NCBI GenBank assembly: GCA_900544295.1
Contig: UQUO01000037.1
Location: forward strand, 1-18,849
Direction of reading: 5' to 3'
Source: an uncultured Eubacteriales bacterium
Lineage (GTDB): Bacteria > Bacillota > Clostridia > Oscillospirales > Oscillospiraceae
Length of the DNA: 18,849 nt
A program made the position numbers and the translations under genes. Shown here piece by piece: positions 401 to 14,889 of the stretch. Within the stretch, counting starts at the first letter, position 1. Every line of letters starts with the position of its first letter. Under the pieces are notes generated by a model, which saw nothing but the letters and a program-made list of their open reading frames with translations, had not been told where the DNA came from and made no database searches.

Positions 401-1018
401 TTACATAACTATTGCCTTCTTGGGGCAGATGTCGTGGCAGGTGCCGCAGGCGATGCATTTGTCCTCGTCGAGGGTCCAGGTCTTGGCGGCGCGGTCCACG
501 GCGAGGGCGCCGGCGGGGCATTTCTTGGCGCAGAGCGTGCAGTAGATACACTTGGCCGGGTCCTGGACGGGCAGGCCGTCCTCCCGCGGCTTCGGGCCCT
601 CCGGCTCCGGGGCGGCCGCCTCGCCGCAGGCGGCGGGCGGGGCCTTCTTCACCGGCTTCTTCTTCAAATACGTTCCGGTCACTACCAGGTCGTCCTCGCA
701 CCTCGCCACCATGTGGTAGTCCTGCGTCAGCTCTATGGCATGCTTCACGCAGAAGTCCGCACAGGTGTTGCAGAAGGTGCAGGAGCCAAGGAAAAACCGG
801 CGGGTCACGAGGATGCCGTCCTCGGTCTCCTCAGAGCTGGTCGAAATGGCGCCGCCGGCGCAGACACGCTCGCACATGCCGCAGCTTATGCACTGGTCCG
901 CGTGGAAAACTATGCGGCCCCTGTAGCCTATCGGCGCCTCCTTCGGCGTGAAGGGATAGCCCTCGGTGCTGGGCTTGGAAAAGAGCTGGGTCACGGCCTC
1001 TTTAAGAAACGGTATCAT
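401..1018 (-). CDS. mbhN: Mbh-type hydrogenase ferredoxin-like subunit with four [4Fe-4S] motifs
   Basis: Electron-entry subunit of the membrane-bound hydrogenase, related to complex I NuoI and MbhN/EchF. It would take electrons from reduced ferredoxin and pass them to MbhJ at the cytoplasmic face. The 205-residue protein has four C-x2-C-x2-C-x3-C motifs: C43/46/49/53, C80/83/86/90, C157/160/163/167 and C188/191/194/198. The first pair with its N-terminal segment (PIGYRGRI) is the usual MbhN/NuoI fold. The second pair is an added ferredoxin-like domain after a Lys/Pro/Ala/Glu-rich linker (about 119-150). Family members usually have two clusters and about 120-180 residues, so the C-terminal domain is an extra. 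The start overlaps the end of mbhJ by 4 bp, and this is the last gene of the operon. The family call is firm; the electron path is inferred. Confidence 0.9.
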   Translation of the reverse strand: MIPFLKEAVTQLFSKPSTEGYPFTPKEAPIGYRGRIVFHADQCISCGMCERVCAGGAISTSSEETEDGILVTRRFFLGSCTFCNTCADFCVKHAIELTQDYHMVARCEDDLVVTGTYLKKKPVKKAPPAACGEAAAPEPEGPKPREDGLPVQDPAKCIYCTLCAKKCPAGALAVDRAAKTWTLDEDKCIACGTCHDICPKKAIVM

Positions 1019-1458
1019 TCCTTGGCCCCCCTTTTCTCCTTGAGTATCTGCGTCGCCAGGGCCAGGCCGTCGATTATGGCCTCCGGCTTCGGCGCGCAGC
1101 CGGCGATGGACACGTCTATGTCCACGTACTTATCCAGCGGGCCGACAACGGAGTAGCTGCCCTTGAACACGTTGCAGGACCTCGGGCAGCTGCCCAGGGT
1201 CACGATGACCTTCGGGTCCGGCACCTGCTCTATGGTGCGCAGCACCCTGTCCTTCGACTGCGCCGTGATGGGGCCGGAGACGACGACGATGTCCGCATGC
1301 CTCGGCGTACCAGCCAGCTTGAAGCCCAGGCGCTCCGCATCGTACCTCGGGGTCAGCACGGCGACGAGCTCTATGTCGCAGCCGTTGCAGCTGCCCGCGT
1401 TGATGTGGAACAGCCAGGGAGATTTGGCCGCGGAATTGTCTATTATCTTCTTAAACAT
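1015..1458 (-). CDS. mbhJ: [NiFe]-hydrogenase small subunit, NuoB/MbhJ type
   Basis: Small subunit carrying the proximal [4Fe-4S] cluster, homologous to complex I NuoB. It passes electrons from MbhN to the NiFe site in MbhL. The 147-residue protein has the compact group 4 form, without the second-domain cluster ligands or Tat signal of uptake hydrogenases. Visible ligands are C24 and C27 (GSCNGCDIE), C91 (LGSCPRSC) and C121 (AGCAPKPE). The last motif is normally GCPP, so Pro is replaced by Ala. GGAGG stands 6-7 bp upstream of the ATG. The gene lies 12 bp after mbhM and overlaps mbhN by 4 bp. Confidence 0.93.
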   Translation of the reverse strand: MFKKIIDNSAAKSPWLFHINAGSCNGCDIELVAVLTPRYDAERLGFKLAGTPRHADIVVVSGPITAQSKDRVLRTIEQVPDPKVIVTLGSCPRSCNVFKGSYSVVGPLDKYVDIDVSIAGCAPKPEAIIDGLALATQILKEKRGAKE

Positions 1459-1470
1459 CCTTCCGCCTCC

Positions 1471-2418
1471 TTACACTATCCACACGAGGATGAGGCTCAC
1501 GAGCGCCAGCCCGCTGACCACCGTCCAGAAAAACTTGAACACCTGCTCCACGCGGAAGCGGGCCATGACGGCGTGCGTAAGGGTCATGCTCACGACCGTG
1601 ACTATCGTGCAGAACACCAGCGCGATGATGACGTCCAGCCACATCATGCCCGTCGTCACACCGCCGAGGAAGAGGGCGGTGAAAAGCGCCGTCATGATGA
1701 ACATCTTGATGCAGTGCGAGAGCTTGAACACCGCCAGAGGCGCGCCGCTGTACTCAACGAGCGGACCCTCGCAGATCTCAGTCTCCGCCTCCCCGACGTC
1801 GAAGGGGTGCGCGCCGACCTCGCAGGGTATGATGAGCAGCATGGCCACCGCCGCCGGGATGAGCCGCCAGTCCAGCAGGAAGGGGCCGCTCAGGCCCTGG
1901 ATGATGGTTATCTGCTCCAGGGAGAAGGTGACGTAGCCGTAGCCCGCCGCGCGGCCCACCGCCAGCAGCACGAGGATGAGCGGCAGCTCATAGCTCATGA
2001 TGGTGACCATTGACCTGGACACGCCGACGCCCGCAAAGGGCGAACCGGAGGCCGAGCCGCCCAGGATAATGGCCAGCGAGGGTATCGCCAGCAGATACAG
2101 GATGACGACGGTATCCGCCGCGCTTCCGAAGGCCTGCAGCCCGCCCAACGGGATGAACAGCGCCGTCACGACAAGGCTGACGAGGCCGACATAGGGCGCC
2201 GCAAGGAAGGTCACCTTCGCGGCGTTGGCCGGGATTATGGTCTCCTTGCCCAGCAGTTTGAAGAAGTCATAGGTGGGCTGGAGCACCGGGGGGCCGACGC
2301 GCTTCTGCATGCGGGCCAGGAGCTTCCTGTCCACGCCGGCCAGCCAGAGTCCGAACACGCAGGCGAACAAAAGACCGGGGAAAATGAGGATATAGATCGC
2401 TTTTATCAGTATTTCCAT
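1471..2418 (-). CDS. mbhM: Membrane anchor subunit, NuoH/MbhM type
   Basis: Integral membrane subunit that joins the hydrogenase peripheral arm to the ion-pumping arm, homologous to complex I NuoH (ND1) and MbhM/EchB. The 315-residue protein has about eight hydrophobic segments. Family signatures are present: the loop after helix 1 with LLARMQKRVGPPVLQPTYD, and the acidic loop PFDVGEAETEICEGPLVEYSG near residues 200-220, whose Glu residues are linked to ion coupling in this family. It follows mbhH by 15 bp, with a GGGGGTGG ribosome binding site, and precedes mbhJ. The call is strong. Confidence 0.93.
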   Translation of the reverse strand: MEILIKAIYILIFPGLLFACVFGLWLAGVDRKLLARMQKRVGPPVLQPTYDFFKLLGKETIIPANAAKVTFLAAPYVGLVSLVVTALFIPLGGLQAFGSAADTVVILYLLAIPSLAIILGGSASGSPFAGVGVSRSMVTIMSYELPLILVLLAVGRAAGYGYVTFSLEQITIIQGLSGPFLLDWRLIPAAVAMLLIIPCEVGAHPFDVGEAETEICEGPLVEYSGAPLAVFKLSHCIKMFIMTALFTALFLGGVTTGMMWLDVIIALVFCTIVTVVSMTLTHAVMARFRVEQVFKFFWTVVSGLALVSLILVWIV

Positions 2419-2433
2419 CTCTCGTCCACCCCC

Positions 2434-4350
2434 TTACATGAATGCGAAGCAGTACACGATTATCACCGCAAGGGCCGTTATGCCCCAGAGGACGTAATCG
2501 TTCGTCACGCCGCTGTGCGCCTTTGACATGAAGCCGAGGTAGCCGCGCAGATTGTGCTTGAAGCCCCAGAAGAGGTCCCCGCTCGCGACGTGCGAGTACT
2601 GGGCCTCCTCGCCGCCGAAGAAGACGGCGTGCTTGCTGTCGGGCGCGCAGTTCATGCCGCCCCTGTCGCGCCTGCCGAGGAGCGACACCAGGAACACGGC
2701 GGCGAGCACGATGACGAACAGCAGCAGCCAGTTCACCGGGCTCCACGCGCCGACGGCCTTCAGCTCGGGCGCTGCGAGATAGTAGGGGTCCGTTATCGTG
2801 GCCAGGGCGTAGCCCTCGCCCATCGCGGCGTCTATGTACTGCGGGAAGTTCAGCACGGCCGCGGTCGCTGGGCCGATGATGTACTTCATCATGAGGTTCG
2901 GGGCAACACCGGTGAAGATACACAGGGCCGCCATTATCCACATGGGTATGCGCATCGACAGCGGCGTTTCCTTGACGTTCTCCAGCTCCAGCGGCAGCTG
3001 GCCGAAGAACACGGACTGCCCGACCTTGATGAAGGAGGCCAGGGTCAGGACGCTCGTCACGACGCAGACGACGGTGACGAGGGCGTAGCCTATGCTGCCC
3101 GTCTCCGCGGACTTCTCAAAGGTGGCCTGGTATATGAGCCACTTGGAGTAGAAGCCGTTGAAAGGAGGTATGCCGCTGATGGAGAAGGCGCCTATGAGGA
3201 AGAGCGCCGCCGTCTGCGGCATCTTCCGCGCGAGGCCGCCGAGCTTCTCAAGGTAGGTCGTGCCGGTGGCGTACAGTACGGCGCCGGCGGTGAGGAAGAG
3301 CAGGCCCTTGAAGAGCGTGTGGTTTATGGCGTGGTACAGGCCGCCCGCGATGCCGAGCGCCGTGCACAGGCCGAGGCTCGTCAGGATGTAGCCTATCTGC
3401 GAGATGCTGTGGAAGGCCAGCAGGCGCTTGAAGTCGTGCTGGTTGAGCGCCATCGTCACGCAGACGAACATCGAGACGCAGCCGATGAGCACAAGGCCGG
3501 TCTGCATGGCCGGCAGGCCCATGCTGCGGAAGAGGAAGTAGCTGACCCTGATGATGCCGTAGACGCCGGTCTTGGTGAAGACGCCGGAGATGAGCACGGA
3601 GACCGAGCTCGGCGCGGCGCCGTGGGCGTCGGCGGCGATGGGGTGGAAGGGGAACATGAAGCTCTTGCAGCCGAAGCCGGTGAAGAGCAGCGCAAAGGCC
3701 AGGATCATGGTCGGGTTCATGTTGCCCGGGAGCAGGGCCGAGATCTGCGCCAGGTTCAGCGTGTGGCACTGGGCATACACCAGCGCCGTGCCGAGCAAAA
3801 CGCAGCTGGAGCCTATGGAGCCGACGACGAGGTACTTGAAAGCCGCCTCGCGGGCGTTGGGGTTCCAGGTGCGGAAGGCCGTCAGGCCCACGGCCGCAAA
3901 GGTCATGACCTCCAGCATTACGTAGATGTTGAAGAGGTCGCCGGAGAGGACTATGCCCATGACGCCGCCGGCCAGCATGAGGTAGAGCGTGAAATAGCTG
4001 CCGCGCGCGTCGTCCTGCTTTATGTAGCGGAAGGAGTAGAAGCAGGAGCAGGCCACCGCTATGGCAACGAGCAGGCCGAAGAACAGGCTCAGCGCGTCCA
4101 CCTCTATGGCGATGCCTATGGCGTAGCCGCTCACGGGCTCCCAGTTGCCCATCCAGTAGACTATCGTCTCGCCGCCTATCATGACGGGCTTTATAAGCAG
4201 CGCCAAAAGCGTCAGCGCCGCCAGGACGGCCACGCCGGCTATGACGTTGCGCAGCTTCTCGCGCTTGCCCGCGAGCGTCACGAGAAAGGCGCCCACGAAC
4301 AGCACCATGATGGCGAGCACGGGGAAATGCATATAGACATCGTGTGTCAT
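2434..4350 (-). CDS. mbhH: Antiporter-like subunit MbhH with C-terminal MbhI-like extension
   Basis: Large proton/sodium-translocating subunit, homologous to MrpD and NuoL/M/N. Signature residues of the family are in place: Glu147 in LEVMTFAAVG, Lys229 in GCKSFMFPFHP, Lys260 in FTKTGVYG and Lys348 in HTLFKGLLFL. The 638-residue length is about 100-130 more than typical MbhH/MrpD. After about residue 537 there is one membrane segment (539-558), a hydrophilic stretch (560-618) with HSGVTNDYVLW at its end, and a last membrane segment (620-637). No separate mbhI gene is found between mbhH and mbhM, so this tail may be a fused MbhI-like subunit (inference). Its ATG overlaps the mbhG stop by 4 bp. 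Confidence 0.92.
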   Translation of the reverse strand: MTHDVYMHFPVLAIMVLFVGAFLVTLAGKREKLRNVIAGVAVLAALTLLALLIKPVMIGGETIVYWMGNWEPVSGYAIGIAIEVDALSLFFGLLVAIAVACSCFYSFRYIKQDDARGSYFTLYLMLAGGVMGIVLSGDLFNIYVMLEVMTFAAVGLTAFRTWNPNAREAAFKYLVVGSIGSSCVLLGTALVYAQCHTLNLAQISALLPGNMNPTMILAFALLFTGFGCKSFMFPFHPIAADAHGAAPSSVSVLISGVFTKTGVYGIIRVSYFLFRSMGLPAMQTGLVLIGCVSMFVCVTMALNQHDFKRLLAFHSISQIGYILTSLGLCTALGIAGGLYHAINHTLFKGLLFLTAGAVLYATGTTYLEKLGGLARKMPQTAALFLIGAFSISGIPPFNGFYSKWLIYQATFEKSAETGSIGYALVTVVCVVTSVLTLASFIKVGQSVFFGQLPLELENVKETPLSMRIPMWIMAALCIFTGVAPNLMMKYIIGPATAAVLNFPQYIDAAMGEGYALATITDPYYLAAPELKAVGAWSPVNWLLLFVIVLAAVFLVSLLGRRDRGGMNCAPDSKHAVFFGGEEAQYSHVASGDLFWGFKHNLRGYLGFMSKAHSGVTNDYVLWGITALAVIIVYCFAFM

Positions 4351-4697
4351 CCGTGCAGCCTCCTTATCTCACGCGCGTCCAGAGTGCCGTATTCCTTGTA
4401 GATGCGCACGCAGAGCGCCAAGGCCATCGCCGTCACGCAGGCGCCGATGACGATGCTCGTCAGCGTCAGCGCCTGGGGGATGGGGTCTACAAAATACATG
4501 CCGCTCGTCAGCTCTCCGAAGGTGTATATGGGCGCCGTGCCGCCCTCGTTGAAGCCTATGGAGACTATCATGAGGTTCAGCCCGTAGTCCACGAGGCCCA
4601 TGCCGACGACTATCTTGATTATATCGCGCTTCATTGCCATGGCGTAGAAGCCGATGACGACCAGGGCCACGGCTCCGATGTAGTTTGCCAGCATCAT
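4347..4697 (-). CDS. mbhG: MrpC/NuoK-like membrane subunit MbhG
   Basis: Three-helix membrane subunit homologous to MrpC (MnhC) and complex I NuoK; part of the ion-translocating membrane arm. The protein starts MMLANYIG and is 116 residues, a normal family length. It contains the NuoK-like segment VVGMGLVDYGLNLMIVS and the MrpC-like region DPIPQALTLTSIVIGACVTA. I chose the ATG at 4697: it gives an ATGA overlap with the mbhF stop and sits 9 nt after GGAAGGGGG. An ATG one codon later (4694) is also possible. A longer frame reading in from further upstream is an artefact over mbhF. Confidence 0.92.
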   Translation of the reverse strand: MMLANYIGAVALVVIGFYAMAMKRDIIKIVVGMGLVDYGLNLMIVSIGFNEGGTAPIYTFGELTSGMYFVDPIPQALTLTSIVIGACVTAMALALCVRIYKEYGTLDAREIRRLHG

Positions 4698-5200
4698 TTG
4701 GACAGACCCCCTTCCTCGTGCTCCGTGGTGGGGATGGTGCCGTCGAACTCGTGCCCCTCGTCCATGCCTAGCAGGTAGATGACCAGCAGCAGCAGGAAGC
4801 CGACGCCGGTGAGCACTTTGAAGCCGACCGCATAGTTCATGAGCGCTATCGTGCCGGAGCTCCACAGGTCGCCTATATTGCCGCTGCTCCAGAGGATGTT
4901 GCGGCAGAAGTTGTAGCCTGCGAAGATGCCCAGCATGGCGAAGAGCACGTAGGCTATGGCGCCCACGGCCTCCAGCCTGTGCATGCGCTCCATGTTTATG
5001 GCCGACGCTATGCCCCTGAAGCCGTAGCCCAGGTACAGCAGCAGCACGCCGCTGGCCGCCAGGACGCCGCCCTGGAAGCCGCCGCCGGGGCTGATGTTGC
5101 CGTGCAGGATGACGTAGAAGCCCAGCACCAGCGCTATGGGCAGGTAGCTGTCCGCAAGGGAGCGGACGATGAGGTCGTCGCGTTTCCACTTTTTATTCAT
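4694..5200 (-). CDS. mbhF: MrpB-like membrane subunit MbhF
   Basis: Membrane subunit homologous to MrpB (MnhB domain) of cation/proton antiporters and to MbhF. The 168-residue protein has about four hydrophobic segments and the hallmark HGNISPGGGFQGG at residues 33-45. It is somewhat longer than minimal MrpB because of hydrophilic ends (KKWKRDD at the start, EGHEFDGTIPTTEHEEGG at the end). It overlaps mbhE by 8 bp and mbhG by 4 bp, consistent with translational coupling. Confidence 0.92.
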   Translation of the reverse strand: MNKKWKRDDLIVRSLADSYLPIALVLGFYVILHGNISPGGGFQGGVLAASGVLLLYLGYGFRGIASAINMERMHRLEAVGAIAYVLFAMLGIFAGYNFCRNILWSSGNIGDLWSSGTIALMNYAVGFKVLTGVGFLLLLVIYLLGMDEGHEFDGTIPTTEHEEGGLSK

Positions 5201-5549
5201 GGCCGCCGCCCTCCCATCTCTTGGTCTGCCGCCGCAGGATGACGGTGGCGCCGGTTATGGCGATGAGCAGGACGAAGCTCTCGCCCAGGGTGTCGTAGCC
5301 GCGGAAGTCGAAGACTATGGCGGTGACGTTGTTGACCGCCTGGGTCTTTGCGAGGTTCTCCTGGACTATTATGCTCGCCGCGCCGTCCGGGTCCGAGACG
5401 TCGTAGCTCTGCGGGTCCTGCTGGAGCTGGTAGACGTCCGTGCCACGCCCGTCGTAGGTAACGGGTATCTCGCTGTGCATATACGCCACGGAGTAGACGC
5501 CGACGATGAGGATGGCTATGAGCGAAACTGCCAGAACGAGCTTTTTCAT
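5193..5549 (-). CDS. mbhE: Hydrogenase subunit MbhE (MrpA C-terminal-like)
   Basis: Small membrane subunit equivalent to the last part of MrpA and to MbhE. The 118-residue protein has an N-terminal membrane segment (about 3-23), a polar middle, the family motif NVTAIVFDFRGYDTLGE at residues 74-90, and a second membrane segment (about 91-105) ending in a basic tail. In Mrp antiporters these parts form one MrpA protein; splitting them over MbhD and MbhE is characteristic of Mbh/Mbs-type complexes. Overlaps of 4 bp with mbhD and 8 bp with mbhF. Confidence 0.92.
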   Translation of the reverse strand: MKKLVLAVSLIAILIVGVYSVAYMHSEIPVTYDGRGTDVYQLQQDPQSYDVSDPDGAASIIVQENLAKTQAVNNVTAIVFDFRGYDTLGESFVLLIAITGATVILRRQTKRWEGGGHE

Positions 5550-5806
5550 TTCTCATCCTCCCCCTTTCCGCCGGTCTTGCGCAGCGCCACGACGAAGATG
5601 ATGGTCGTCAGCACGACGCCGACCGCAGCCTCGGCTATCGCGACGTCCGGGGCCTGGAGCATGATGAACTCCAGCGAGACGAAGGCGCCGCAGGCCGCCA
5701 GACAGATGATGCTGGAGAGCGTCCGCTTCGCCGTTACGGTCAGCACGGCGCTCACGACTATGCCGAGGACTATGAGCGTGTTGAGGATGTAGACGGGCGT
5801 TATCAT
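5546..5806 (-). CDS. mbhD: Hydrogenase subunit MbhD (DUF4040)
   Basis: Three-helix membrane subunit of 86 residues corresponding to a C-terminal part of MrpA, related to complex I NuoJ. The DUF4040/MbhD hallmark LQAPDVAIAEAAVG is at residues 50-63. The C-terminus is charged (GGKGEDEK). It starts inside the mbhC stop region (4-bp overlap) and overlaps mbhE by 4 bp. Its place between the MrpG-like and MbhE genes matches the gene order of archaeal mbh operons. Confidence 0.92.
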   Translation of the reverse strand: MITPVYILNTLIVLGIVVSAVLTVTAKRTLSSIICLAACGAFVSLEFIMLQAPDVAIAEAAVGVVLTTIIFVVALRKTGGKGEDEK

Positions 5807-6201
5807 GTCTCTTCACCCTCCTTTTCAACAGCGGCCTCCGCCTCGGGCTCGACGCAGGCGTCCGGCTCCGCCAGGTCGTCCACAGCAAGCTCGCGCTCGG
5901 GCCTTATGCCTATCCTGTATGCCGCGCGGGCGATCGCGTGGCCGCCCACTGGGTTCGCCAGCACCGTCAGCACGCCGATGATGACGACCTTCGCCGCGCT
6001 GCCCCAGCTGTGCATCACGAAGATGAAGTACAGCAGCGCGCCTATGAGCGTCAGCAGTATGCCCAGCGTGGTGATGTTGGTCGAGCTCTGCATGCGGGAG
6101 AAGGTGTCCGGCATACGCACTATGCCCACCGCCCCCGCGAAGGCGAAGAAGCAGCCGCCGACTATGAACAGGTCGATAATGACTCTGAGTGCAATATTCA
6201 T
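5803..6201 (-). CDS. mbhC: MrpG-like membrane subunit MbhC
   Basis: Membrane subunit homologous to MrpG/MnhG and MbhC. The family motif GAVGIVRMPDTFSRMQSSTN lies near residues 23-42, and there are three membrane segments in the first 90 residues. The protein is 132 residues. Its last 30 or so residues are acidic and Glu/Ala-rich (EPEAEAAVEKEGEE), a tail I do not associate with the family core. It overlaps mbhB by 4 bp and mbhD by 4 bp. Confidence 0.92.
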   Translation of the reverse strand: MNIALRVIIDLFIVGGCFFAFAGAVGIVRMPDTFSRMQSSTNITTLGILLTLIGALLYFIFVMHSWGSAAKVVIIGVLTVLANPVGGHAIARAAYRIGIRPERELAVDDLAEPDACVEPEAEAAVEKEGEET

Positions 6202-6452
6202 AGCGTGCCCTCCAGATACTTGCCTATCAGCACCTGGCTCAGGAAGCCCAGTATGGCCGTCACGATGGCTATGTCAAGGTAGATGCCGCGGCCGGAGTAC
6301 ATGGCCACCAGCACCAGAGCCATATCCGTCAGGACGTCCACACAGTCGCCCGCCACGGCCCTGTCGGGGGCGGTGGGGCCCTTTATGAGCCGCCAGATGG
6401 CGATGAAGCAGCACAGTATGTAGAAGATGGCAAAGTATATAAGCTCCGTCAT
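6198..6452 (-). CDS. mbhB: MrpF-like membrane subunit MbhB
   Basis: Small three-helix membrane subunit homologous to MrpF/MnhF and MbhB; it helps link the Mrp module to the rest of the complex. The conserved RLIKGPTAPDRAVAGD segment is visible. I chose the ATG at 6452 (MTELIYFAIFY, 84 residues): AGGAGG lies 8 nt upstream and the start forms an ATGA overlap with the mbhA stop. The ATG at 6458 is only 2 nt from AGGAGG, and the one at 6473 lies upstream of it. Confidence 0.9.
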   Translation of the reverse strand: MTELIYFAIFYILCCFIAIWRLIKGPTAPDRAVAGDCVDVLTDMALVLVAMYSGRGIYLDIAIVTAILGFLSQVLIGKYLEGTL

Positions 6453-6976
6453 TGCCATATCCTCCTTAACCATTTTTCCATGCGGCCCTTTATTATCTCG
6501 CCCGCCGCGGCCCTGTCGGTCTCGACCACGTCTATCCAGTGGATGTAGTACCAGGTCTGGCCCTCGTGCTCGTCTATGTCCACGGTTATGGTGCCGGGCG
6601 TCAGGGTGATGGAATTTGCCAGCATGGTCTTGCCGTATTCGGTGGGGACGTCCACCGGGACCTTGATGATACCGGGGTTTATTTTCAGCTTTGGAGAAAG
6701 AGCCCTCTTCGCCATGTCGCAGTTGGCCTTGATGAGCTCCCAGGGGAAGATGGCCACGCAGTACCAGATGAGAATGAACAGCCGCTTCCCGAAGAACCGG
6801 CCCGGGCTCTCATGCACGAACCAGCGCGCCGAGAACAGCGCCACGCCCGCCGAGACCACCGCGCCCGCGACAAGCTCCTGCCAGGCAAAAGAGCCTGTCA
6901 AAAGTATCCAGAAGAAGTAGCACAGCACGAACGTGGCGAACCATGCGCCAAACGTCGCCTTACGCTTTGCCTCCAA
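6449..6976 (-). CDS. mbhA: MrpE-like membrane subunit MbhA
   Basis: First gene of the Mrp-like module, homologous to MrpE/MnhE and MbhA. There are membrane segments in the first 80 or so residues, then a soluble domain with the conserved block TMLANSITLTPGTITVDIDE and the GQTWYYIHWIDV region. I chose the TTG at 6976 (MEAKRKATF, 175 residues) because GGAGGT stands 6 nt upstream and this leaves a 16-bp gap after hypA. The upstream TTG at 7000 would overlap the end of hypA and place GGAGGT inside the gene. Confidence 0.9.
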   Translation of the reverse strand: MEAKRKATFGAWFATFVLCYFFWILLTGSFAWQELVAGAVVSAGVALFSARWFVHESPGRFFGKRLFILIWYCVAIFPWELIKANCDMAKRALSPKLKINPGIIKVPVDVPTEYGKTMLANSITLTPGTITVDIDEHEGQTWYYIHWIDVVETDRAAAGEIIKGRMEKWLRRIWQ

Positions 6977-6992
6977 GTTGACACCTCCTGTT

Positions 6993-7328
6993 TTACTCAA
7001 CTTCTATCGAATCAATGTAAAACTCCCTGCCCTGCGTGAGTCTGAAGCTCCTGCCGCCGCAGCCGGGGCACTCCGCGCCCCGGGCCTGCCCCGAGTAGCC
7101 GCAGTCCGGACACTCGATGGCGGCGGGGATCACCCTCGTTACGAGCTTTGCCCCCTCGGCCACGCTGCCCGCGGCCGCAGCGGGGAAAAACTCGAACATG
7201 CACTCGGGCTCGAAGCCGCTCAGCGCCCCGACGGCGAGGGCTATGCTCTCCACCCGCCGGAAGCCCCTTTGCGCGGCCTCCCGCTCGCAGACCCGCACAA
7301 CGCTCTGCATTATCGCAAGCTCGTGCAT
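6993..7328 (-). CDS. hypA: Hydrogenase nickel-insertion protein HypA
   Basis: Zinc-containing nickel metallochaperone that helps load nickel into the hydrogenase large subunit, normally with the GTPase HypB. It starts with the required MHELAIMQSV (Met1-His2-Glu3 form the Ni site) and has the zinc site C73/C76 (ECPDCG) and C87/C90 (ECPGCG). The 111-residue length is normal. It starts 1 bp after the mbhL stop, so it is embedded between the large-subunit gene and the membrane-arm genes, away from hypFCDE. No hypB is present in the window. Confidence 0.96.
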   Translation of the reverse strand: MHELAIMQSVVRVCEREAAQRGFRRVESIALAVGALSGFEPECMFEFFPAAAAGSVAEGAKLVTRVIPAAIECPDCGYSGQARGAECPGCGGRSFRLTQGREFYIDSIEVE

Positions 7329-7329
7329 C

Positions 7330-8412
7330 TCACCTGTCGAGGCAGCTGAAGCAGGGGTCTATGCTCGCGATGATGAGGCCCGCATCCGCCACCGTGTTGC
7401 CGCGCAGCATGAGCGGCACGGTGGGCGTGTTCTTGTAGCTCGGGACATGGATGCTCACGCGCTGGTTCATCTGCCCGCCGTTGCCGGCGACCTTGTGTGA
7501 GAGCTGCCCGCGCGGCGCTTCGTGGCGCGCCACGAACTCGCCTTCCTTGAGCTTCGGGATCTTGTTGCCCAGGTTTATCGGCCCCGCCGGGAGGTTCTCC
7601 ATCGCCTGGCGGAGTATCTTCACGCTCTCATAGCACTCCAGCAGCCTCACCACCACGCGCGCAAACACGTCGCAGCTGTCGCAGACCGGCACGTCGAAGT
7701 CAAAGTCGTCGTAGGACGAATATGGCGCGTCGCGCCGGACGTCTATCTTCACGCCCGAGGCCCTCGCGTGCGGGCCGACCGCGCCGAGGCGTATGGCGTC
7801 CTCGGTTGACATAACTCCAACGCCCTTGGTGCGCATGGCGATGGTCTTGTCGTTCAGGCATATCTCGACTATCCTGTCCACGATGGGGCCGACTTTGTCG
7901 AGCTTGGCCAGGAAGTCGCGGCGCATGTCCTCGGAGATGTCGCGCCGCGCGCCGCCTATCGTGACCATGGCGTAGTTCACGCGGTTGCCGGAGAGCTCCT
8001 CAAGCATATCCATGATGAGCTCGCGCACGTCCCAGGTGTGCATGAACATGCTGTCATGGCCGATGATGTGGCAGGCGATGCCGGCCCAGAGCAGGTGCGA
8101 GTGCAGCCGCTCCAGCTCCGCCGTGATGACGCGGATGTACTGGCCGCGCTTCGGGACCTCTATCTCATTCAGGCCCTCGACCGCCATGGCGTAGGTGAAG
8201 GCGTGGGAATGCGAACAGATGCCGCATACGCGCTCCACCAGCACCAGGGTCTGGATGGCGTTGCGCTCCGTGGCCAGCTTTTCTATGCCGCGGTGGTTGT
8301 AGCCGACCATGACCTCCGCGTCCTTTATGACCTCGCCCTCTGTATACAGCTTTGCGTGAACGGGCTCCTCTAGTGCGGGATGGTAAGGCCCTATCGGTAC
8401 GATGTAGCTCAT
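7330..8412 (-). CDS. mbhL: [NiFe]-hydrogenase large subunit, group 4 (MbhL/EchE type)
   Basis: Catalytic subunit that holds the NiFe(CN)2CO centre, homologous to complex I NuoD. Both nickel-ligand motifs are complete: C63/C66 in ERVCGICSHSH and C354/C357 in DPCFSCLDR. The 360-residue size fits group 4 enzymes. The stop codon comes directly after Arg360 of DPCFSCLDR. In relatives such as E. coli HycE the maturation protease cuts just after this Arg, so this gene encodes no cleavable tail. ATG follows the mbhK stop by 6 bp and hypA starts 1 bp after the stop. The context with Mrp-like genes points to the Mbh (group 4d-like) branch; a phylogeny would settle the subgroup. Confidence 0.96.
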   Translation of the reverse strand: MSYIVPIGPYHPALEEPVHAKLYTEGEVIKDAEVMVGYNHRGIEKLATERNAIQTLVLVERVCGICSHSHAFTYAMAVEGLNEIEVPKRGQYIRVITAELERLHSHLLWAGIACHIIGHDSMFMHTWDVRELIMDMLEELSGNRVNYAMVTIGGARRDISEDMRRDFLAKLDKVGPIVDRIVEICLNDKTIAMRTKGVGVMSTEDAIRLGAVGPHARASGVKIDVRRDAPYSSYDDFDFDVPVCDSCDVFARVVVRLLECYESVKILRQAMENLPAGPINLGNKIPKLKEGEFVARHEAPRGQLSHKVAGNGGQMNQRVSIHVPSYKNTPTVPLMLRGNTVADAGLIIASIDPCFSCLDR

Positions 8413-8418
8413 ACGCCC

Positions 8419-8823
8419 TTATTCCCCCTTCTCCATGATTTCCACGCGCTTCTCCCTGAGCTCTGAAAGCGGTGTCACGAGTATGTGGCCCTTGCCCTGG
8501 GTCTCAAGCATATCCTCCGGCAGGAAGAGCCTTCTGGAGGTATCCAGGCCCTCGAAATTGAGCCCCATGAGCTCGTAGAGCTCACACTCCGGCCAGCGCG
8601 CGGCCTCGTCATAGATGTCCGAGATAGAAGGCAGATCGGTCTCCCCGACGACATAGTAGGACTCGATATCCGGGTCCACGGCATAGTCGTAGGACACGCG
8701 GACCTGCCCGTCCGGCTGGACGTAGCCGTGGATCATGACGAGCCACCTGCCCTCGTGCCGCATCCGCAGTGCGGTAGGGACTATCTCTTCCTTCGTTATC
8801 TGGATCATCTTGTATCCCTGCAT
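8419..8823 (-). CDS. mbhK: Hydrogenase subunit, NuoC/MbhK type (30-kDa subunit family)
   Basis: Soluble subunit homologous to complex I NuoC and MbhK/EchD; it packs against the large subunit in the peripheral arm. The typical region EAARWPECELYELMGLNFEG is present, followed by RRLFLPEDM. I chose the ATG at 8823 (MQGYKMIQITKEE, 134 residues) with GAGG 8 nt upstream; a GTG at 8832 overlaps the ribosome binding site. This is the first structural hydrogenase gene, set off from hypE by about 50 bp of unusually AT-rich sequence. Confidence 0.9.
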   Translation of the reverse strand: MQGYKMIQITKEEIVPTALRMRHEGRWLVMIHGYVQPDGQVRVSYDYAVDPDIESYYVVGETDLPSISDIYDEAARWPECELYELMGLNFEGLDTSRRLFLPEDMLETQGKGHILVTPLSELREKRVEIMEKGE

Positions 8824-8837
8824 TCTTTCCACCTCAC

Positions 8838-8865
8838 TGTTTTTAAAAGATATATTTAAAAAACA
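8838..8865. promoter_or_regulatory. AT-rich inverted repeat between hypE and mbhK
   Basis: Arms TGTTTTTAAA (8838-8847) and TTTAAAAAACA (8855-8865) match apart from one extra A, around the spacer AGATATA. In a tightly packed, GC-rich operon this roughly 50-bp AT-rich gap stands out. It could be an operator, an internal promoter for the structural genes, or an RNA stability element. I do not see a convincing -35/-10 pair, so the role is unknown. Confidence 0.4.
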
Positions 8866-8872
8866 TTGCGGA

Positions 8873-9865
8873 CTAACATATGCGCGGAAGCTGCGCCCCC
8901 GCGAGCTTTTGCAGCAGCCGGGCGCCGCCCGCCGCCGTCCTGAGCGCGACCCTTCCGGGCCGCTCCACCGTCACGCGGCCTATTATCGCGGCGTTTTCGC
9001 CCTCAGGGCGGCTCCTGAGCGCCGCCAGCGCCGCCTGCGCGTCCTCCGGCGCGACGACGGCAAGCATTTTGCCCTCGTTCGCGCAGTAGAGCGGGTCGAG
9101 CCCCAGCAGGGCGCAGGCCGCGGAGACGTCCCGCCTCACAGGGATTGCCGCCTCGTCGAGCTCTATGCCCAGCTTTGCGCTCTCGGCAAACTCGCAGAGC
9201 GTCGTCGCAACGCCGCCGCGCGTGGGGTCGCGCAGGACGCGCACCTGCGCGCCGGAGTCCAGCAACGCAAAGGCCAGGCCGTTCAGGGCTGCGCAGTCGG
9301 AGCGTATCTCGCCCTCCATCAGCCCGTCGCGCGCGAGCATGACCGCCGCGCCGTGGTCCCCCGCCGTGCCGGAAAGGAGCACGGCGTCGCCCGGGCGCAT
9401 CTTATCCGGGCCGAGGCCTGGGTATTTCACGAGGCCGATGCCCGCGGTGTTTATATAGAGCCCATCGCCCCTGCCGCGCTCGACGACCTTGGTGTCTCCC
9501 GTGACGACCTGGACGCCCGCCGCCTCCGCCGCTGACTTTATCGAGGCCACCACCCGCCGCAAATCCTCCGCCGGCAGGCCCTCCTCGATGATGAGGGCAA
9601 GGCTGAGGTACTTCGGCTCCGCGCCGCACATGGCAAGGTCGTTCACCGTGCCGCAGACGCTGAGCTTGCCTATGTCCCCTCCCGGGAAGAACAGCGGGCT
9701 CACGACAAAGCTGTCCGTCGAGAAGGCGAGCCCTCCCTCCAGCACCGCCCCGTCGCCCAGGCTGTTCAGCGCAGCGTTCCCCAGCTCGGGGACTATTATC
9801 TCGTCTATCAGCGCCGCGGTCTTTTTGCCGCCCGAGCCGTAGTCGAGGGTTATTATATCATCCAT
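8873..9865 (-). CDS. hypE: Hydrogenase maturation protein HypE (carbamoyl dehydratase)
   Basis: ATP-dependent enzyme that dehydrates the carbamoyl group placed on its own C-terminal cysteine by HypF, giving a thiocyanate used to make the CN ligands. The protein ends in the diagnostic PRIC, with the reactive Cys as last residue. PurM-like features include DYGSGGKKT, VCGTVNDLAMCGAEP, VTGDTKVVERG, RDPTRGGVATTL and CANEGKML. I chose the ATG at 9865 (MDDIITLDYGSGG, 330 residues), one base after the hypD stop; the longer frame would read back into hypD and lacks family similarity at its N-terminus. Confidence 0.96.
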   Translation of the reverse strand: MDDIITLDYGSGGKKTAALIDEIIVPELGNAALNSLGDGAVLEGGLAFSTDSFVVSPLFFPGGDIGKLSVCGTVNDLAMCGAEPKYLSLALIIEEGLPAEDLRRVVASIKSAAEAAGVQVVTGDTKVVERGRGDGLYINTAGIGLVKYPGLGPDKMRPGDAVLLSGTAGDHGAAVMLARDGLMEGEIRSDCAALNGLAFALLDSGAQVRVLRDPTRGGVATTLCEFAESAKLGIELDEAAIPVRRDVSAACALLGLDPLYCANEGKMLAVVAPEDAQAALAALRSRPEGENAAIIGRVTVERPGRVALRTAAGGARLLQKLAGAQLPRIC

Positions 9866-9866
9866 C

Positions 9867-10928
9867 TCAGCACTCCCGATATTTGTACGCCGCGGCGCAG
9901 GCTCCCTCCGAGGACACCATGCAGGGCCCCACGGGATCCTCCGGCGTACAGAGCTTCCCAAAGAGCGGGCAGCCCTCCGGGGCCAACCGGCCCGTTATCA
10001 CCTCGCCACAGCGGCAGGCCGTGGGTGCCTCGGCCGCGCCGGGCCTTATGTCGAATTTCTTTGCCGCGTCCCAGGCCGAGAGCTCCTCCCGGAAGGCGAG
10101 GCCGCTCGCCTCTATCTCCCCGAGGCCCCGCCAGGAGGCCCGCGCCGGCGTAAAGCAGCGCTCAAGCATCGCCCGCGCCAGCTCGTTGCCGCCGGGGCTC
10201 ACGGCCCTTTTGTACTCGTTCACGAGACCGGGCCTGTCGTCCGCGAGCATGCGCAAAAGCTCGTAGACGGAAAGCAGTATGTCCTCCGGCTCGAAACCGG
10301 CCACCACGGCGGGCAGGCCGTATTCCTCAGGCAGGAAGCGGAAGTGCTCCGAGCCCGTCACGACGGCGACGTGTCCCGGGCAGAGGAAGCCATGCACGCT
10401 GAAGCCCTCCGAGCCTATGAGCGCCCGCAGCGCCGGCTCCACCAGACGGAACATCGGGAACACCGAGTAGTTCCCCACTCCCTGCTCCCTGGCTGCGAGG
10501 ACGCTGGCCGCAGTGCCGGGGGCAGTCGTCTCAAAACCGACCCCCAGGAAGACCACCTCGCGCTCCGTGTGCTTTTTTGCCAGCTCCACGGCGTCCATGG
10601 GCGAGTACACCAGCTCGACCGAGCCGCCGCGCGCCCGCCTGTGCGCCAGGTCGTCCCCGCGCCTCGTGCCGGGGACGCGGAGCATGTCGCCGTAGCTCGC
10701 CACGGTGACGCCCGGCCTTGAGGCCAGCTCCAGCGCCGCGTCCATGAGCTCCGGCGGCGTCACGCAGACAGGGCAGCCCGGGCCGGAGACCAGCTCCACG
10801 CCCGGGGGCAGGAGCCTCTTTATCCCCGCCTTCGCTATGGCCATCGTGTGCGTGCCGCAGACCTCCATGAGCCGCGCGCGCATGGGCGGCAGGGCGTTTA
10901 TGCGCTCTATTATCTCAGCGGAGCGCAT
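9867..10928 (-). CDS. hypD: Hydrogenase maturation protein HypD
   Basis: Scaffold on which, together with HypC, the Fe(CN)2CO unit is assembled. The 353-residue protein has the expected motifs: MEVCGTHTMAIAKAG (Cys24), GPGCPVCVTP (Cys52/55), and a C-terminal cluster region with CRCGEVITG, GCPLFGKLCTPEDPVGPCMV and SSEGAC. These C-terminal cysteines bind a [4Fe-4S] cluster in known HypD proteins. The ATG has GAGGTGG just upstream and overlaps the end of hypC by 14 bp. hypE follows after 1 bp. Confidence 0.96.
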   Translation of the reverse strand: MRSAEIIERINALPPMRARLMEVCGTHTMAIAKAGIKRLLPPGVELVSGPGCPVCVTPPELMDAALELASRPGVTVASYGDMLRVPGTRRGDDLAHRRARGGSVELVYSPMDAVELAKKHTEREVVFLGVGFETTAPGTAASVLAAREQGVGNYSVFPMFRLVEPALRALIGSEGFSVHGFLCPGHVAVVTGSEHFRFLPEEYGLPAVVAGFEPEDILLSVYELLRMLADDRPGLVNEYKRAVSPGGNELARAMLERCFTPARASWRGLGEIEASGLAFREELSAWDAAKKFDIRPGAAEAPTACRCGEVITGRLAPEGCPLFGKLCTPEDPVGPCMVSSEGACAAAYKYREC

Positions 10929-11136
10929 TTTCCACCTCAGCCCACTCCGCTATGTCCTCCAGGGCCTGCTCCTCCGGCAGGCGCTCTATGGCAAAACCCG
11001 CGTGGACGATGACGTATTCGCCTATTTTCGGCTCCTTTATGAAGTCGAGCCTCATCCTCCGGCGCAGGCCCTCGACCTCGCCGACGGCGTCCAGGCCGTT
11101 TATTTCAACTATCTTCAGCGGTACCGCCAGACACAT
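10915..11136 (-). CDS. hypC: Hydrogenase maturation chaperone HypC
   Basis: Small chaperone that pairs with HypD during Fe(CN)2CO assembly and then carries it to the large subunit. It starts MCLAVPLKIVEI, where Cys2 is the essential residue, and has the GEYVIVHAGFAIERL motif. The 73-residue length is normal. A GGAGG lies 7 nt before the ATG. The start lies inside the end of hypF (32-bp overlap) and the end overlaps hypD by 14 bp. Confidence 0.96.
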   Translation of the reverse strand: MCLAVPLKIVEINGLDAVGEVEGLRRRMRLDFIKEPKIGEYVIVHAGFAIERLPEEQALEDIAEWAEVENALR

Positions 11137-13345
11137 ATTCTGCCTCCAAAGCCATGAGCTGCCCGAGCGCGACGCCCTCGTCGTTCGTCGAGACCCGGCT
11201 GTGCGTGTATACCTCCAGGCCGCAGGCCCGCAGGGCGCCGGTAAGGCGCTCCATGAGATACATATTCTGAAACACCCCGCCGGAGAGCACGATCCTCCGC
11301 AGTCCCGTCTTTTCGGCTGCGCGGCGGCACATTTCCGCCGCCATGCGCACGAGGGTGTTCATAAACTTCGCCGCGACCTTCTCCGCGGCCTCGCCGCCCG
11401 AGGCGATCTGCCTCACCATGGGCCGCCAGTCGAAAACCGCAAGCTCCCCGTCCTCGTAAAAGGCCGTCTCGTACTCGCTGCTCTCGTTCTCCGCCGCCGC
11501 GGCCTCCAGGAGCACAGCGCCCTGGCCCTCGTAGCTGCAATTCTCCCTTATTCCCGCAAGGGCGCAGACGCCGTCGAAGAGCCGGCCCATGCCGGAGCTT
11601 CTCGGGCAGTTCAGGGAGCGCAGGAGCATGGTTTTTATCGTGCTGTTCTTATTTTCAAGCCCCGCCTCGAACATTAGCGCCTCGGCGGTGCGCCATATCT
11701 CCTTTGTCGCGGCGTCGCCGCCGGGGAGCGGTATTGGCCTTATCGTGCCGAGCCGCCTGAAGCCCTTCGCACCGCCCGCGAGCAGCTCACCGCCCCAGAT
11801 GGCACCGTCCGTCCCGTAGCCCGTGCCGTCCCAGATGAGGCCCAGGCACTCGCCGGAAAGGCCGTTATCCGCCATGCAGGAGAGCATGTGCGCGTGGTGG
11901 TGCTGGACGCGCAGGAGCGGGATGCCCTTCTCCCTCGCCAGCGCTTCCGCAACGCCGGTGGAGAGATAATCCGGATGCAGGTCGCAGGCCACGGCCCGCG
12001 GCTCAAAATCAAAGAGTTTCGCAAAGTGGCGCAGCTGCTCCTCGTAGCAGTCCAGCGTTTCAAGGTGCTTAAGGTCGCCAATGTGCTGGCTCGGGAAGGC
12101 GTGGCCCTCCTTTGAAAGGCAGAAGCCCGCCTTTTGCTCCGCCCCGCAGGCCAGCAGCCCGGCGCTCAGGCCCGGGACGGCGACGGGGTATGGCACATAG
12201 CCCCGCGAACGGCGCAGGGGATAATCCCGGCCCTCGAAAACGCGGATGAGCGAATCATCACAGCGGGTCAGTATCTCCCTGTCGTGCAGCAGGAAGCCAT
12301 CCGCTATATTGCCGAGGCGCTCCATGGCCTCGGCGTTCTTGTATACGATGGGCGTATCGGAGAGGTTCGCGCTCGTCATAACGAGGCAGTCGAGGTCCTC
12401 GCCCAGGAGCAGGACGTGCAGGGGCGTATATGGCAGCATGACGCCAAGGGAGTTGTTCTCGCTCAGGTGCATGTATGTCCCACGCTCGCGTTTTTCGAGG
12501 AGGACTATCGGCCTCCTGAAGGAGGAAAGCGCCCGTTCCTCGTCCTGCGAGACCTTGCAGAGCCGCCGGACGGCGGCGATGTCCCGGCACATGAGGGCAA
12601 AGGGCTTCTCGTCCCGCCTTTTGCGCCGCCTCAGCCTGGCCGCGGCGGTCTCGTCCTCCGCCAGGCAGGCCAGATGCATGCCGCCCAGGCCCTTGACGCA
12701 GAGGATACCGCCGCTTTTAAGCAGCGCCCGCGCTGCCTCGATGCCGTCCCCCGGCAGGCGGCGGCCGTCGGTGTCCGTGAAAAAGGTATGCGGCCCGCAA
12801 GCCGGGCAGCAGTCAGGCTGGGCGTGGTAGCGCCGGTTTTCAATGTCCGCAAACTCCGCCGCGCAGTCCGGACACATCGAAAACTCCGACATGGAGGTGT
12901 AGGCCCGGTCATATGGGACGGAGCGGATGATGGTAAAGCGCGGCCCGCAGTTAGTGCAGTTTATGAAGGGGTAGCGGTAGCGTCTGTCCCCGGGAGTCAG
13001 CAGTTCCCTCAGGCAGTCAGGGCAGATGCCCGCGTCCGGCGAGACGAGCGTGCGCATTTTCTCTCCCCGCTCGCTCGGGACTATGCGGAAGCCTGTGAAA
13101 TGCTCCCCGCCGTGCAGCGCGCGCGCCTCGACGCCCTCTATGAGCGCCAGAGGCGGGGCCTCCGCCTCCAGCTCGCGCAGGAAGGCGGAAAGCTCCCCAG
13201 CCTCGCCCTCCAGCTCCAGCTCCGCGCCCTGCGGGCTGTTGCGCACCCAGCCCACAAGGCCGTGCCGCTTCACCAGCCGGTGGACAAAGGGGCGGAACCC
13301 CACGCCCTGGACTATGCCGCGCACATCTATGTGAAGCCTTGTCAA
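11105..13345 (-). CDS. hypF: Carbamoyltransferase HypF
   Basis: First enzyme of CN-ligand synthesis: it makes carbamoyl-adenylate from carbamoyl phosphate and ATP and transfers the carbamoyl to HypE. The 746-residue protein has all domains in order: acylphosphatase domain (VRGIVQGVGFRPFVHRL, residues 8-24), two zinc fingers (C108/C111/C130/C133 and C158/C161/C180/C183), YrdC-like domain (about 200-385) and Kae1-like domain with HHHAH at 482-486 and LSGGVFQN near the end. The start is a TTG at 13345 with AGGGGG 4 nt upstream. First gene of the operon; a near-consensus promoter and Rex-like sites stand just upstream. Confidence 0.95.
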   Translation of the reverse strand: MTRLHIDVRGIVQGVGFRPFVHRLVKRHGLVGWVRNSPQGAELELEGEAGELSAFLRELEAEAPPLALIEGVEARALHGGEHFTGFRIVPSERGEKMRTLVSPDAGICPDCLRELLTPGDRRYRYPFINCTNCGPRFTIIRSVPYDRAYTSMSEFSMCPDCAAEFADIENRRYHAQPDCCPACGPHTFFTDTDGRRLPGDGIEAARALLKSGGILCVKGLGGMHLACLAEDETAAARLRRRKRRDEKPFALMCRDIAAVRRLCKVSQDEERALSSFRRPIVLLEKRERGTYMHLSENNSLGVMLPYTPLHVLLLGEDLDCLVMTSANLSDTPIVYKNAEAMERLGNIADGFLLHDREILTRCDDSLIRVFEGRDYPLRRSRGYVPYPVAVPGLSAGLLACGAEQKAGFCLSKEGHAFPSQHIGDLKHLETLDCYEEQLRHFAKLFDFEPRAVACDLHPDYLSTGVAEALAREKGIPLLRVQHHHAHMLSCMADNGLSGECLGLIWDGTGYGTDGAIWGGELLAGGAKGFRRLGTIRPIPLPGGDAATKEIWRTAEALMFEAGLENKNSTIKTMLLRSLNCPRSSGMGRLFDGVCALAGIRENCSYEGQGAVLLEAAAAENESSEYETAFYEDGELAVFDWRPMVRQIASGGEAAEKVAAKFMNTLVRMAAEMCRRAAEKTGLRRIVLSGGVFQNMYLMERLTGALRACGLEVYTHSRVSTNDEGVALGQLMALEAEYVSGGTAEDS

Positions 13346-13360
13346 TTTTCCCCCTGATTA

Positions 13361-13378
13361 GTGTTAATTATTTGACAT
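13361..13378. promoter_or_regulatory. Rex-like operator, site 1 (5' leader of hypF)
   Basis: GTGTTAATTATTTGACAT matches the Rex consensus TTGTTAA-N4-TTAACAA at 11 of 14 defined positions by eye. It lies downstream of the hypF promoter, between the likely transcription start (near 13405) and the TTG, a position from which a repressor could block elongation. Confidence 0.5.
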
Positions 13379-13411
13379 TTCATAGTGTAAATGCCGCCTC
13401 AACTATGCTTG

Positions 13412-13440
13412 ATTCTATCACCAGCCCATATATTTGTCAA
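13412..13440 (-). promoter_or_regulatory. Promoter of the hyp-mbh operon
   Basis: On the minus strand, TTGACA (13440-13435), a 17-bp spacer and TAGAAT (13417-13412): a perfect -35 and a five-of-six -10 for the main vegetative sigma factor. The leader to the hypF TTG would be about 60 nt. The -35 lies inside Rex-like site 2. Confidence 0.8.
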
Positions 13441-13451
13441 CAAATTAACAT
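13434..13451. promoter_or_regulatory. Rex-like operator, site 2 (over the hypF -35)
   Basis: Minus-strand reading ATGTTAATTTGTTGACAA matches TTGTTAA-N4-TTAACAA at 12 of 14 defined positions by eye. It covers the -35 box of the hypF promoter, as expected of a repressor site. It shares TGTTAA-N4-TTGACA with site 1 but on the opposite strand. Confidence 0.55.
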
Positions 13452-13462
13452 CATCTCCGGCG

Positions 13463-13491
13463 TTGTTATTCTGAGTAAAATGTGTTAATAT
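13463..13491 (+). promoter_or_regulatory. Promoter of the DUF362 gene
   Basis: TTGTTA (13463-13468), 17-bp spacer, TAATAT (13486-13491). The start codon at 13521 is about 30 bp downstream, with AGGGAGG at 13507-13513. Weaker than the opposing hypF promoter. Confidence 0.55.
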
Positions 13492-13499
13492 TGTACAAA
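13482..13499. promoter_or_regulatory. Possible Rex-like operator, site 3 (over the DUF362 -10)
   Basis: GTGTTAATATTGTACAAA has an intact TGTTAA half-site but a poor second half; about 10 of 14 consensus positions match by eye. It covers the -10 of the plus-strand promoter. The weakest of the three. Confidence 0.3.
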
Positions 13500-13520
13500 A
13501 CCTTGTAGGGAGGCTTACAC

Positions 13521-14624
13521 ATGACTGAAGCAAAAGTCTACTATTCCGATATGCGCGCGCACGGCCGGAGCCTGCTCTCCAAGCTGCGCCGCCTTATGAA
13601 GGAGGCCGGTTTTGAGAGCATAGACTTCGACGGCAAGTTCGTCGCAGTCAAGATACATTTCGGTGAGCCAGGCAACCTTGCCTATCTGCGCCCGAACTGG
13701 GCGGCGGAGGTCTGCGACTACATACGCGAGCTCGGCGGCAAGCCTTTCCTCACGGACTGCAACACCCTCTACGTCGGCGGGCGCAAGAACGCGCTCGACC
13801 ACCTCGACAGCGCCTACAAAAACGGCTACAACCCCTTCCAGACAGGCGTACACACCATCATCGCGGACGGTCTCAAAGGCACGGACGAGGCGCTCATCCC
13901 CGTCGAGGGCGGCGAGTATGTGAAGGAAGCCAAGATAGGCCGCGCTCTGGCTGACGCGGACATCATCATCTCCCTTTCCCACTTCAAGGGCCACGAACAG
14001 ACCGGCTTCGGCGGCGCGCTGAAGAACCTCGGCATGGGCGGCGGCTCCCGCGCTGGCAAGATGGAGATGCACTCGGCTGGCAAGCCCTTCGTTAAGCAGA
14101 AAAAGTGCATCGGCTGCGGGGCCTGCGCGCGCATCTGCGCCCACGGCGCGCCCATCATCGAGGGCGGCAAGTGCACCATAGACCAGGACCGCTGCGTCGG
14201 CTGCGGCCGCTGCATCGGCGTATGTCCCAAGGACGCTGTGACCCCCGCCAACGACGAGGCCTTTGAGATACTGGGCTGCAAGATAGCCGAGTATGCCAAG
14301 GCCGTCTGCCAGGGCAAGCCGCACTTCCACATCAGCCTCGCCGTGGACATCTCCCCCTACTGCGACTGCCACGCGGAAAACGACGCCGCCGTCGTGCCGG
14401 ACGTAGGCATGTTCGTCTCCTTCGACCCCGTGGCCATCGACGTTGCCTGCGCGGACGCGGTGAACGCCCAGCCGCCCATCGCCAACAGCATGCTGGGCGA
14501 GGCCGAGCACTGCCACCACGACCACTTCAAGGACATCTCCCCCGATACGGACTGGAATTCGCAGACAGAACACGCCGAAAAGATAGGCCTGGGCAGCAGA
14601 AAATACGAGCTTATAAGGCTCTGA
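13521..14624 (+). CDS. DUF362 protein with two [4Fe-4S] motifs
   Basis: Belongs to the DUF362 family of anaerobe iron-sulfur proteins, whose biochemical role is not established. The 367-residue protein has the DUF362 body (KIHFGEPGNLAYLRP, residues 44-58; DADIIISLSHFKGHEQTGFGG, about 145-165; a further part after 240) with a ferredoxin-like insert: C196/C199/C202/C206 and C225/C228/C231/C235, each C-x2-C-x2-C-x3-C. It has no signal peptide. AGGGAGG stands 7 nt before the ATG. It is transcribed away from the hydrogenase operon from a shared control region, which suggests, but does not show, a linked redox role. No clear terminator follows it before the tRNA promoter. Confidence 0.85.
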   Translation: MTEAKVYYSDMRAHGRSLLSKLRRLMKEAGFESIDFDGKFVAVKIHFGEPGNLAYLRPNWAAEVCDYIRELGGKPFLTDCNTLYVGGRKNALDHLDSAYKNGYNPFQTGVHTIIADGLKGTDEALIPVEGGEYVKEAKIGRALADADIIISLSHFKGHEQTGFGGALKNLGMGGGSRAGKMEMHSAGKPFVKQKKCIGCGACARICAHGAPIIEGGKCTIDQDRCVGCGRCIGVCPKDAVTPANDEAFEILGCKIAEYAKAVCQGKPHFHISLAVDISPYCDCHAENDAAVVPDVGMFVSFDPVAIDVACADAVNAQPPIANSMLGEAEHCHHDHFKDISPDTDWNSQTEHAEKIGLGSRKYELIRL

Positions 14625-14800: not shown

Positions 14801-14808
14801 TGCCTTAT

Positions 14809-14883: not shown

Positions 14884-14889
14884 ACCTAC

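Follow-up and report, generated by a model that had tools for sequence, protein, structure and literature searches.

The window, by which we mean the whole 18,849-nucleotide stretch of DNA analyzed here, contains an 18-gene, H2-making hydrogenase operon whose first gene is hypF. A short intergenic region separates hypF from a divergent gene for a ferredoxin-domain protein (Table 1). Behind hypF, a same-strand run of open reading frames encodes an energy-converting [NiFe] hydrogenase, with the maturation genes hypC, hypD, hypE, and hypA, a NuoC-like subunit, a NuoD-like hydrogenase large subunit, a NuoH-like subunit, a small subunit, a ferredoxin subunit, and Mrp-type antiporter subunits. When four genes of this run were scanned against NCBIfam, hypA exceeded the cut-off and the large subunit, NuoH-like, and MrpD-like proteins fell below it; the other names were assigned from gene order and by eye. 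The divergent protein is called DUF362 after the first-pass annotation of this DNA. Beyond its gene lie three tRNA genes (Met, Glu, and Val; 14701–14966) and a gene for a SCIFF peptide maturase (15123–16694; TIGR03974, 749 bits, above cut-off).

Table 1. Features of the hypF control region and its surroundings in the window. Site matches are counted against the Rex consensus TTGTTAA-N4-TTAACAA.
Feature	Positions	Strand	Details
Remaining same-strand run behind hypF	401..11136	-	Open reading frames; energy-converting [NiFe] hydrogenase
hypF, first gene of the operon	11105..13345	-	TTG start; NCBIfam TIGR00143, 771 bits, above cut-off
Intergenic region between hypF and the divergent ferredoxin-domain open reading frame	13346..13520		175 bp
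Second Rex-like operator, hypF leader	13361..13378	+	GTGTTAATTATTTGACAT; 11/14
hypF-mbh promoter	13412..13440	-	TTGACA 13440-13435, N17, TAGAAT 13417-13412; TG precedes the -10
Rex-like operator on the hypF-mbh -35	13434..13451	-	ATGTTAATTTGTTGACAA; 12/14
Claimed third site, rejected as an operator	13482..13499	+	GTGTTAATATTGTACAAA; 10/14
Divergent DUF362-type ferredoxin-domain protein	13521..14624	+	Open reading frame; ferredoxin-domain NCBIfam models below cut-off

The word TGTTAA-N4-TTGACA occurs twice in the intergenic region without a mismatch, at 13362–13377 on the plus strand and at 13435–13450 on the minus strand. The letters, positions, and opposite orientation that the first-pass annotation had given for these two sites were thus correct, and its by-eye counts of 11, 12, and about 10 matches for three sites were confirmed as 11, 12, and 10. 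Both sites are 18-bp palindromes with half-sites of the TTGTTAA/TTGTGAA type and a 4-bp gap, and both lie on or near a promoter, where a bound protein would be able to block RNA polymerase. A promoter scan of 13200–13700 returned two promoter-like matches, the better of which (11 of 12) is the hypF promoter. Given the position of this promoter, one site covers the −35 and the other lies in the leader, as had been proposed; with the transcription start placed from the −10, the leader site begins about 27 nt and ends about 44 nt into the hypF leader. The centers of the two sites are 73 bp apart, or about seven helical turns.

Two scoring matrices were built without any hypF site. One was made from six fucO sites of relatives, the first of which had been found with the Rex consensus while the other five are the sites of its orthologues; the other matrix added four acyl-CoA dehydrogenase sites, which had been found by the core pattern itself. 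Among the 18,832 window positions scored with the fucO matrix, the leader site ranked first (15.2 bits) and the −35 site second (12.7 bits), and the next position reached 8.2 bits. With the combined matrix, the corresponding scores were 19.9, 15.4, and 7.6 bits. When the 175-bp region was dinucleotide-shuffled 5000 times, its best score was reached 34 times, and two separate sites at least matching the second-best score occurred once. The third site, at ranks 25 (fucO matrix) and 16 (combined matrix), was indistinguishable from background. These results bear out two of the three Rex-like operators described previously, which score better than random DNA, but not the third. A further consensus match at 18031–18048 (11 of 14) was dropped, as it ranked 9th with the combined matrix and 19th with the fucO matrix.

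Loci of relatives were fetched with HypF, and the best 80 of 573 (L001–L080) were used; their record titles name Oscillospiraceae, Ruminococcaceae, and other Clostridia. The nearest genome among these best 80 of 573, L001, has a HypF with 81% identity. We aligned eight hypF promoters, those of the window, L001–L005, L007, and L077. The columns of GTTAA-N4-TTGACA were invariant in all eight sequences, as were the −10 letters TA..AT, against a mean column identity of 49%. When spacings of 0–11 were tested, GTTAA-Nx-TTGACA occurred in the eight promoters at x = 4 and at no other spacing. All eight have G as the third base of the −35 half-site, a position occupied by A in the Rex consensus, suggesting a compromise between promoter strength and operator fit. 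Conservation in related hyp-mbh loci, which the first-pass annotation had expected of its sites, therefore holds for the −35 site, but the leader site is not conserved in the seven aligned relatives and the third site is not kept across the set either. In L001 (8901–9003), a palindrome, TGTGAATTTTTCACA, with a 3-bp rather than a 4-bp center, lies near the position of the window's leader operator.

Rex elsewhere controls fermentation and electron-transport genes, and similar sequences were found at other Rex-type target genes of this lineage. At fucO, a site lies just downstream of the −10 in all six loci with upstream DNA, one of the six reading GACAA in its first half; the fucO of a seventh genome is cut at a contig start and falls outside this count. 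The fucO product of G001, the nearest genome, was identified as lactaldehyde reductase above the NCBIfam cut-off. A site also precedes each of the four acyl-CoA dehydrogenase genes found (in three of seven genomes), first noticed through the core pattern. For the two of these proteins that were scanned, the best model was acryloyl-CoA reductase, below cut-off, and the next gene is EtfB-like in three cases and crotonase-like in one. By a hand count, GTTAA-N4-TTGAC is listed 20 times in six of the nearest genomes (12.4 Mb): six times at hypF, once per genome, four times at acyl-CoA dehydrogenase genes, once upstream of a pyruvate kinase gene, and nine times elsewhere. The matches in L214, L217, L218, L222, L224, L225, and L227 were not accepted as operators, since a crude gene call placed them within coding sequence or at its margin.

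The upstream regions of rnfC were scored with the combined matrix in 30 loci, out of 36 genomes with a match; 26 of the 30 outscored their shuffles at p ≤ 0.05, and 15 did so at the stricter p ≤ 0.01. The same regions (L126–L155, Oscillospiraceae) often contain a pair of Rex-like sites 20 bp apart, likely a tandem operator. Upstream of rex, only 6 of 30 regions beat shuffles at p ≤ 0.05, so rex itself is mostly unmarked. At the genome scale, the plain consensus with three mismatches showed no excess in G001 (37 places versus 36 for the reversed control). The core GTNAA-N4-TTNAC was found 17 versus 10 times in G001 and 84 versus 52 times in six more genomes, only a mild excess over the seven (101 versus 62). 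The genome-wide evidence resides in which genes carry the core and not in core counts, and the genome-wide rank of the window's sites was judged through the relatives' genomes alone.

The presence of a rex gene, which the first-pass annotation had named as a check on its reading, was likewise judged through relatives. Rex (PF06971) scored above cut-off in 41 of 50 relatives' genomes, including six of the seven nearest, and the two Rex proteins tested exceeded the cut-off of the NCBIfam equivalog NF003990. Among solved Rex structures, the nearest is 3wg9, which is identical in sequence to 3wgi. In nine of the 50 genomes, whose completeness is not stated, rex was not found; one of these is G005, the genome of L005, whose hypF promoter has the site. 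A hypF upstream score of at least 10 was counted by hand in two of nine genomes without a rex match (L005 and L046) and in 14 of 39 with one, and we draw nothing from this comparison because the genomes are related and possibly incomplete.

Several alternative explanations were considered. As one half-site of the −35 operator is itself the −35 and the 203-base stretch preceding hypF has a G+C content of 35%, the sequence might be nothing but a strong promoter, with the upstream TGTTAA an A+T-rich flank devoid of regulatory meaning. Among 64 promoters of the form TTGACA-N16-18-TANNNT collected from 81 sequences, GTTAA stood at N4 in eight, all of them the aligned hypF promoters, and in none of the 56 others, which come from related loci and are not all independent; at other distances no clustering of GTTAA was seen. 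This restriction indicates that the upstream half-site is no general promoter feature. Together with the invariance of the whole word in eight of eight promoters and the fact that the highest-scoring copy is the one in the leader, downstream of the hypF promoter, it makes an unregulated promoter very improbable. Also unlikely, in our view, is a single switch made up of all three sites and repressing the divergent DUF362 gene as well. The 10 of 14 matches of the third site, its counterpart in L001, and the divergent position of a DUF362 homologue in five of the seven nearest loci (L001, L002, L003, L005, and L077) fit such an arrangement. Nevertheless, among these seven loci the third site has a counterpart only in L001; none was seen by eye in L002, L003, L005, or L077 despite their divergent gene, and its matrix ranks are those given above. 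Moreover, the conserved operator would be centered some 55 bp ahead of the point where DUF362 transcription is supposed to start. The opposite promoter itself, TTGTTA-N17-TAATAT, is weak (8 of 12 by our own count) and was not among the promoter-scan matches in 13200–13700. The operator that the first-pass annotation had placed over the DUF362 −10 was accordingly given up, and its proposal of Rex at this control region stands for hypF-mbh but is unproven on the DUF362 side.

A more serious question is whether another repressor with a similar palindrome, for example of the LysR or CRP/FNR type, shares the GTTAA-N4-TTAAC core. This clade, which reads [AG][TC]GTTAA, does not retain the outer T of the Rex consensus. 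In addition, strong matrix matches were found 1.9–3.0 kb upstream of hypF in eight relatives (L013, L018, L019, L023, L037, L042, L049, and L057, the last with a further match 5.4 kb upstream), where they precede a gene judged by eye to encode an SNF-like sodium-dependent transporter. A LysR-type gene lies alongside in at least five of them, divergent from the transporter site in L018, L019, L042, L049, and L057, and a 32-residue piece of one is present in L013. These matches, to which those in L017 are akin in the matrix scan, may mark either another Rex target or a LysR operator resembling the Rex core. They show that fermentation genes are not the only ones to carry the core, and we excluded them as support for Rex control. 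Against a different repressor at hypF, no such regulator gene was recognized by eye among the window's open reading frames (10 scanned), and the genes with the core or similar sites (fucO, acyl-CoA dehydrogenase-Etf, rnfC, and pyruvate kinase) form a Rex-type set. Most relatives examined encode a Rex whose DNA-binding segment closely resembles the one in 3wg9. The predicted Rex regulon of Caproicibacterium lactatifermentans, with the seed TTGTTAANNNNTTAACAA, likewise includes reverse beta-oxidation and Rnf genes (PMC9600882). We therefore regard a different repressor as improbable.

Predicted Rex control of hypF-mbh is, by comparison of sequences, well supported by the conservation of the −35 site, the matrix made from other genes, the shared target set, and the rex genes of relatives. 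The sites over the hypF-mbh −35 and in the leader are very probably Rex operators, at which NADH would release repression. At a low NADH/NAD+ ratio, a Rex dimer on each of the two sites would keep RNA polymerase off the promoter, and Rex bound in the leader might block the polymerase a second time, so that the leader copy could serve as an added roadblock or in a loop. When fermentation becomes unable to dispose of its electrons, NADH would rise and NADH-bound Rex would leave the DNA. This would allow the cell to make the ion-pumping, H2-evolving [NiFe] hydrogenase along with its maturation proteins, and surplus electrons would exit as H2.

Such behavior agrees with that of Rex in general, which keeps promoters shut at low NADH and releases them at high NADH (PMC13077300). 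The closest published case is that of Caldicellulosiruptor bescii, in which a Rex site supported by gel shift lies 147 bp before a 19-gene Ech operon (Athe_1082) (PMC6391272). Both there and in the window, a Rex or Rex-like operator precedes a long energy-converting [NiFe] hydrogenase operon and takes the form of an 18–20 bp palindrome with an N4 center. They differ in that C. bescii belongs to another group of organisms and has the consensus TTGTGAA-N4-TTCACAA (PMC6391272), whereas in the window the −35 doubles as one half-site and the leader contains another site. The same study concluded that Rex represses NiFe hydrogenase structural genes in C. bescii; however, the Ech operon was lower in its rex deletion (log2 values of −0.43, −0.80, and −1.13), which speaks against simple repression there (PMC6391272). 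Rex sites have also been predicted at the Ni-CODH/ECH operons of Parageobacillus and Calderihabitans (PMC13077300; PMC7306483). As in the window, a Rex-like site near the promoter accompanies an energy-converting hydrogenase, and redox-linked expression was proposed; in contrast to the window, these hydrogenases are CO-linked, and the sites, one set of which lies 31–37 bp upstream of the genes (PMC13077300), are predictions. With Caproicibacterium lactatifermentans, the likeness lies in the seed motif and in the reverse beta-oxidation and Rnf targets, but the part of that source used here lists no energy-converting [NiFe] hydrogenase as a target (PMC9600882). No literature on Rex at this operon in Oscillospiraceae of the gut emerged from titles and the beginnings of abstracts, mostly outside subscription journals. 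Rex sites have thus already been published for an operon of this kind of hydrogenase, and the window is a probable further case, from gut Oscillospiraceae: a known type of control in a new instance.

Beyond the nearest relatives, 22 of the 61 matrix matches of at least 12 bits in L001–L080 fall within 200 bp upstream of hypF, where 0.78 would be expected if matches were evenly spread. Of 76 hypF upstream regions, 26 outscored their own dinucleotide shuffles at p ≤ 0.05, a number that fell to 15 at p ≤ 0.01, and the other 50 failed at p ≤ 0.05; L025, L029, L047, and L056 were omitted because less than 200 bp of DNA precedes hypF in them. In L049, L042, L031, L010, and L011, the sites lie 35–47 bp ahead of the hypF start and, judged by eye where the sequence was printed, downstream of a −10-like sequence.

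Ten loci have hypF at the end of the operon with the large subunit upstream. The large-subunit upstream region was scanned in seven of them, the others being L074 (about 90 bp of upstream DNA), L078 (which starts inside the gene), and L075. TTGTTRC-N4-TTGACAA covers the −35 of a TTGACA-type promoter before the large-subunit gene in five of the seven (L060, L061, L067, L071, and L072); no such site precedes this gene in L045 and L076. The five are of the Pseudoflavonifractor type, with the large subunit first and hypF last, and their first half reads GTTAC or GTTGC instead of GTTAA. Here, the site accompanies the first gene of the operon, not hypF. In L061, L067, L071, and L072, matches lying some 8.7 kb ahead of hypF had been open to a chance or coding reading, which we rejected because the DNA shows the first-gene −35 there.

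We give an even chance to a broader proposal, in which the leading gene of the operon in gut Oscillospiraceae has a −35 fused to an operator, and Rex uses this operator to gate the H2 output of the energy-converting hydrogenase. The leading gene is hypF in the group of the window and the large subunit in the Pseudoflavonifractor type, and the operator would have been kept or re-made upon rearrangement of the operon; the window's second operator, seven helical turns away in the leader, would make a tighter or looped switch. H2 from gut fermenters feeds methanogens, acetogens, and sulfidogens. If Rex does set the output of this ion-pumping hydrogenase, a kind of control already reported from Caldicellulosiruptor, H2 release would be coupled directly to the cell's NADH/NAD+ ratio, and a short word conserved in the promoter would predict which of the group's uncultured species are wired in this way.

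The core also appears in other surroundings. In L219 and L232, GTTAA-N4-TTGAC lies downstream of a glycosyltransferase-like gene (by eye), in L219 ahead of a 64-aa open reading frame. L230 and L231 carry the same 18-mer, TTGTTAAATGCTTGACAT, after spmA-spmB-like genes (by eye), and the genes further downstream differ between the two.
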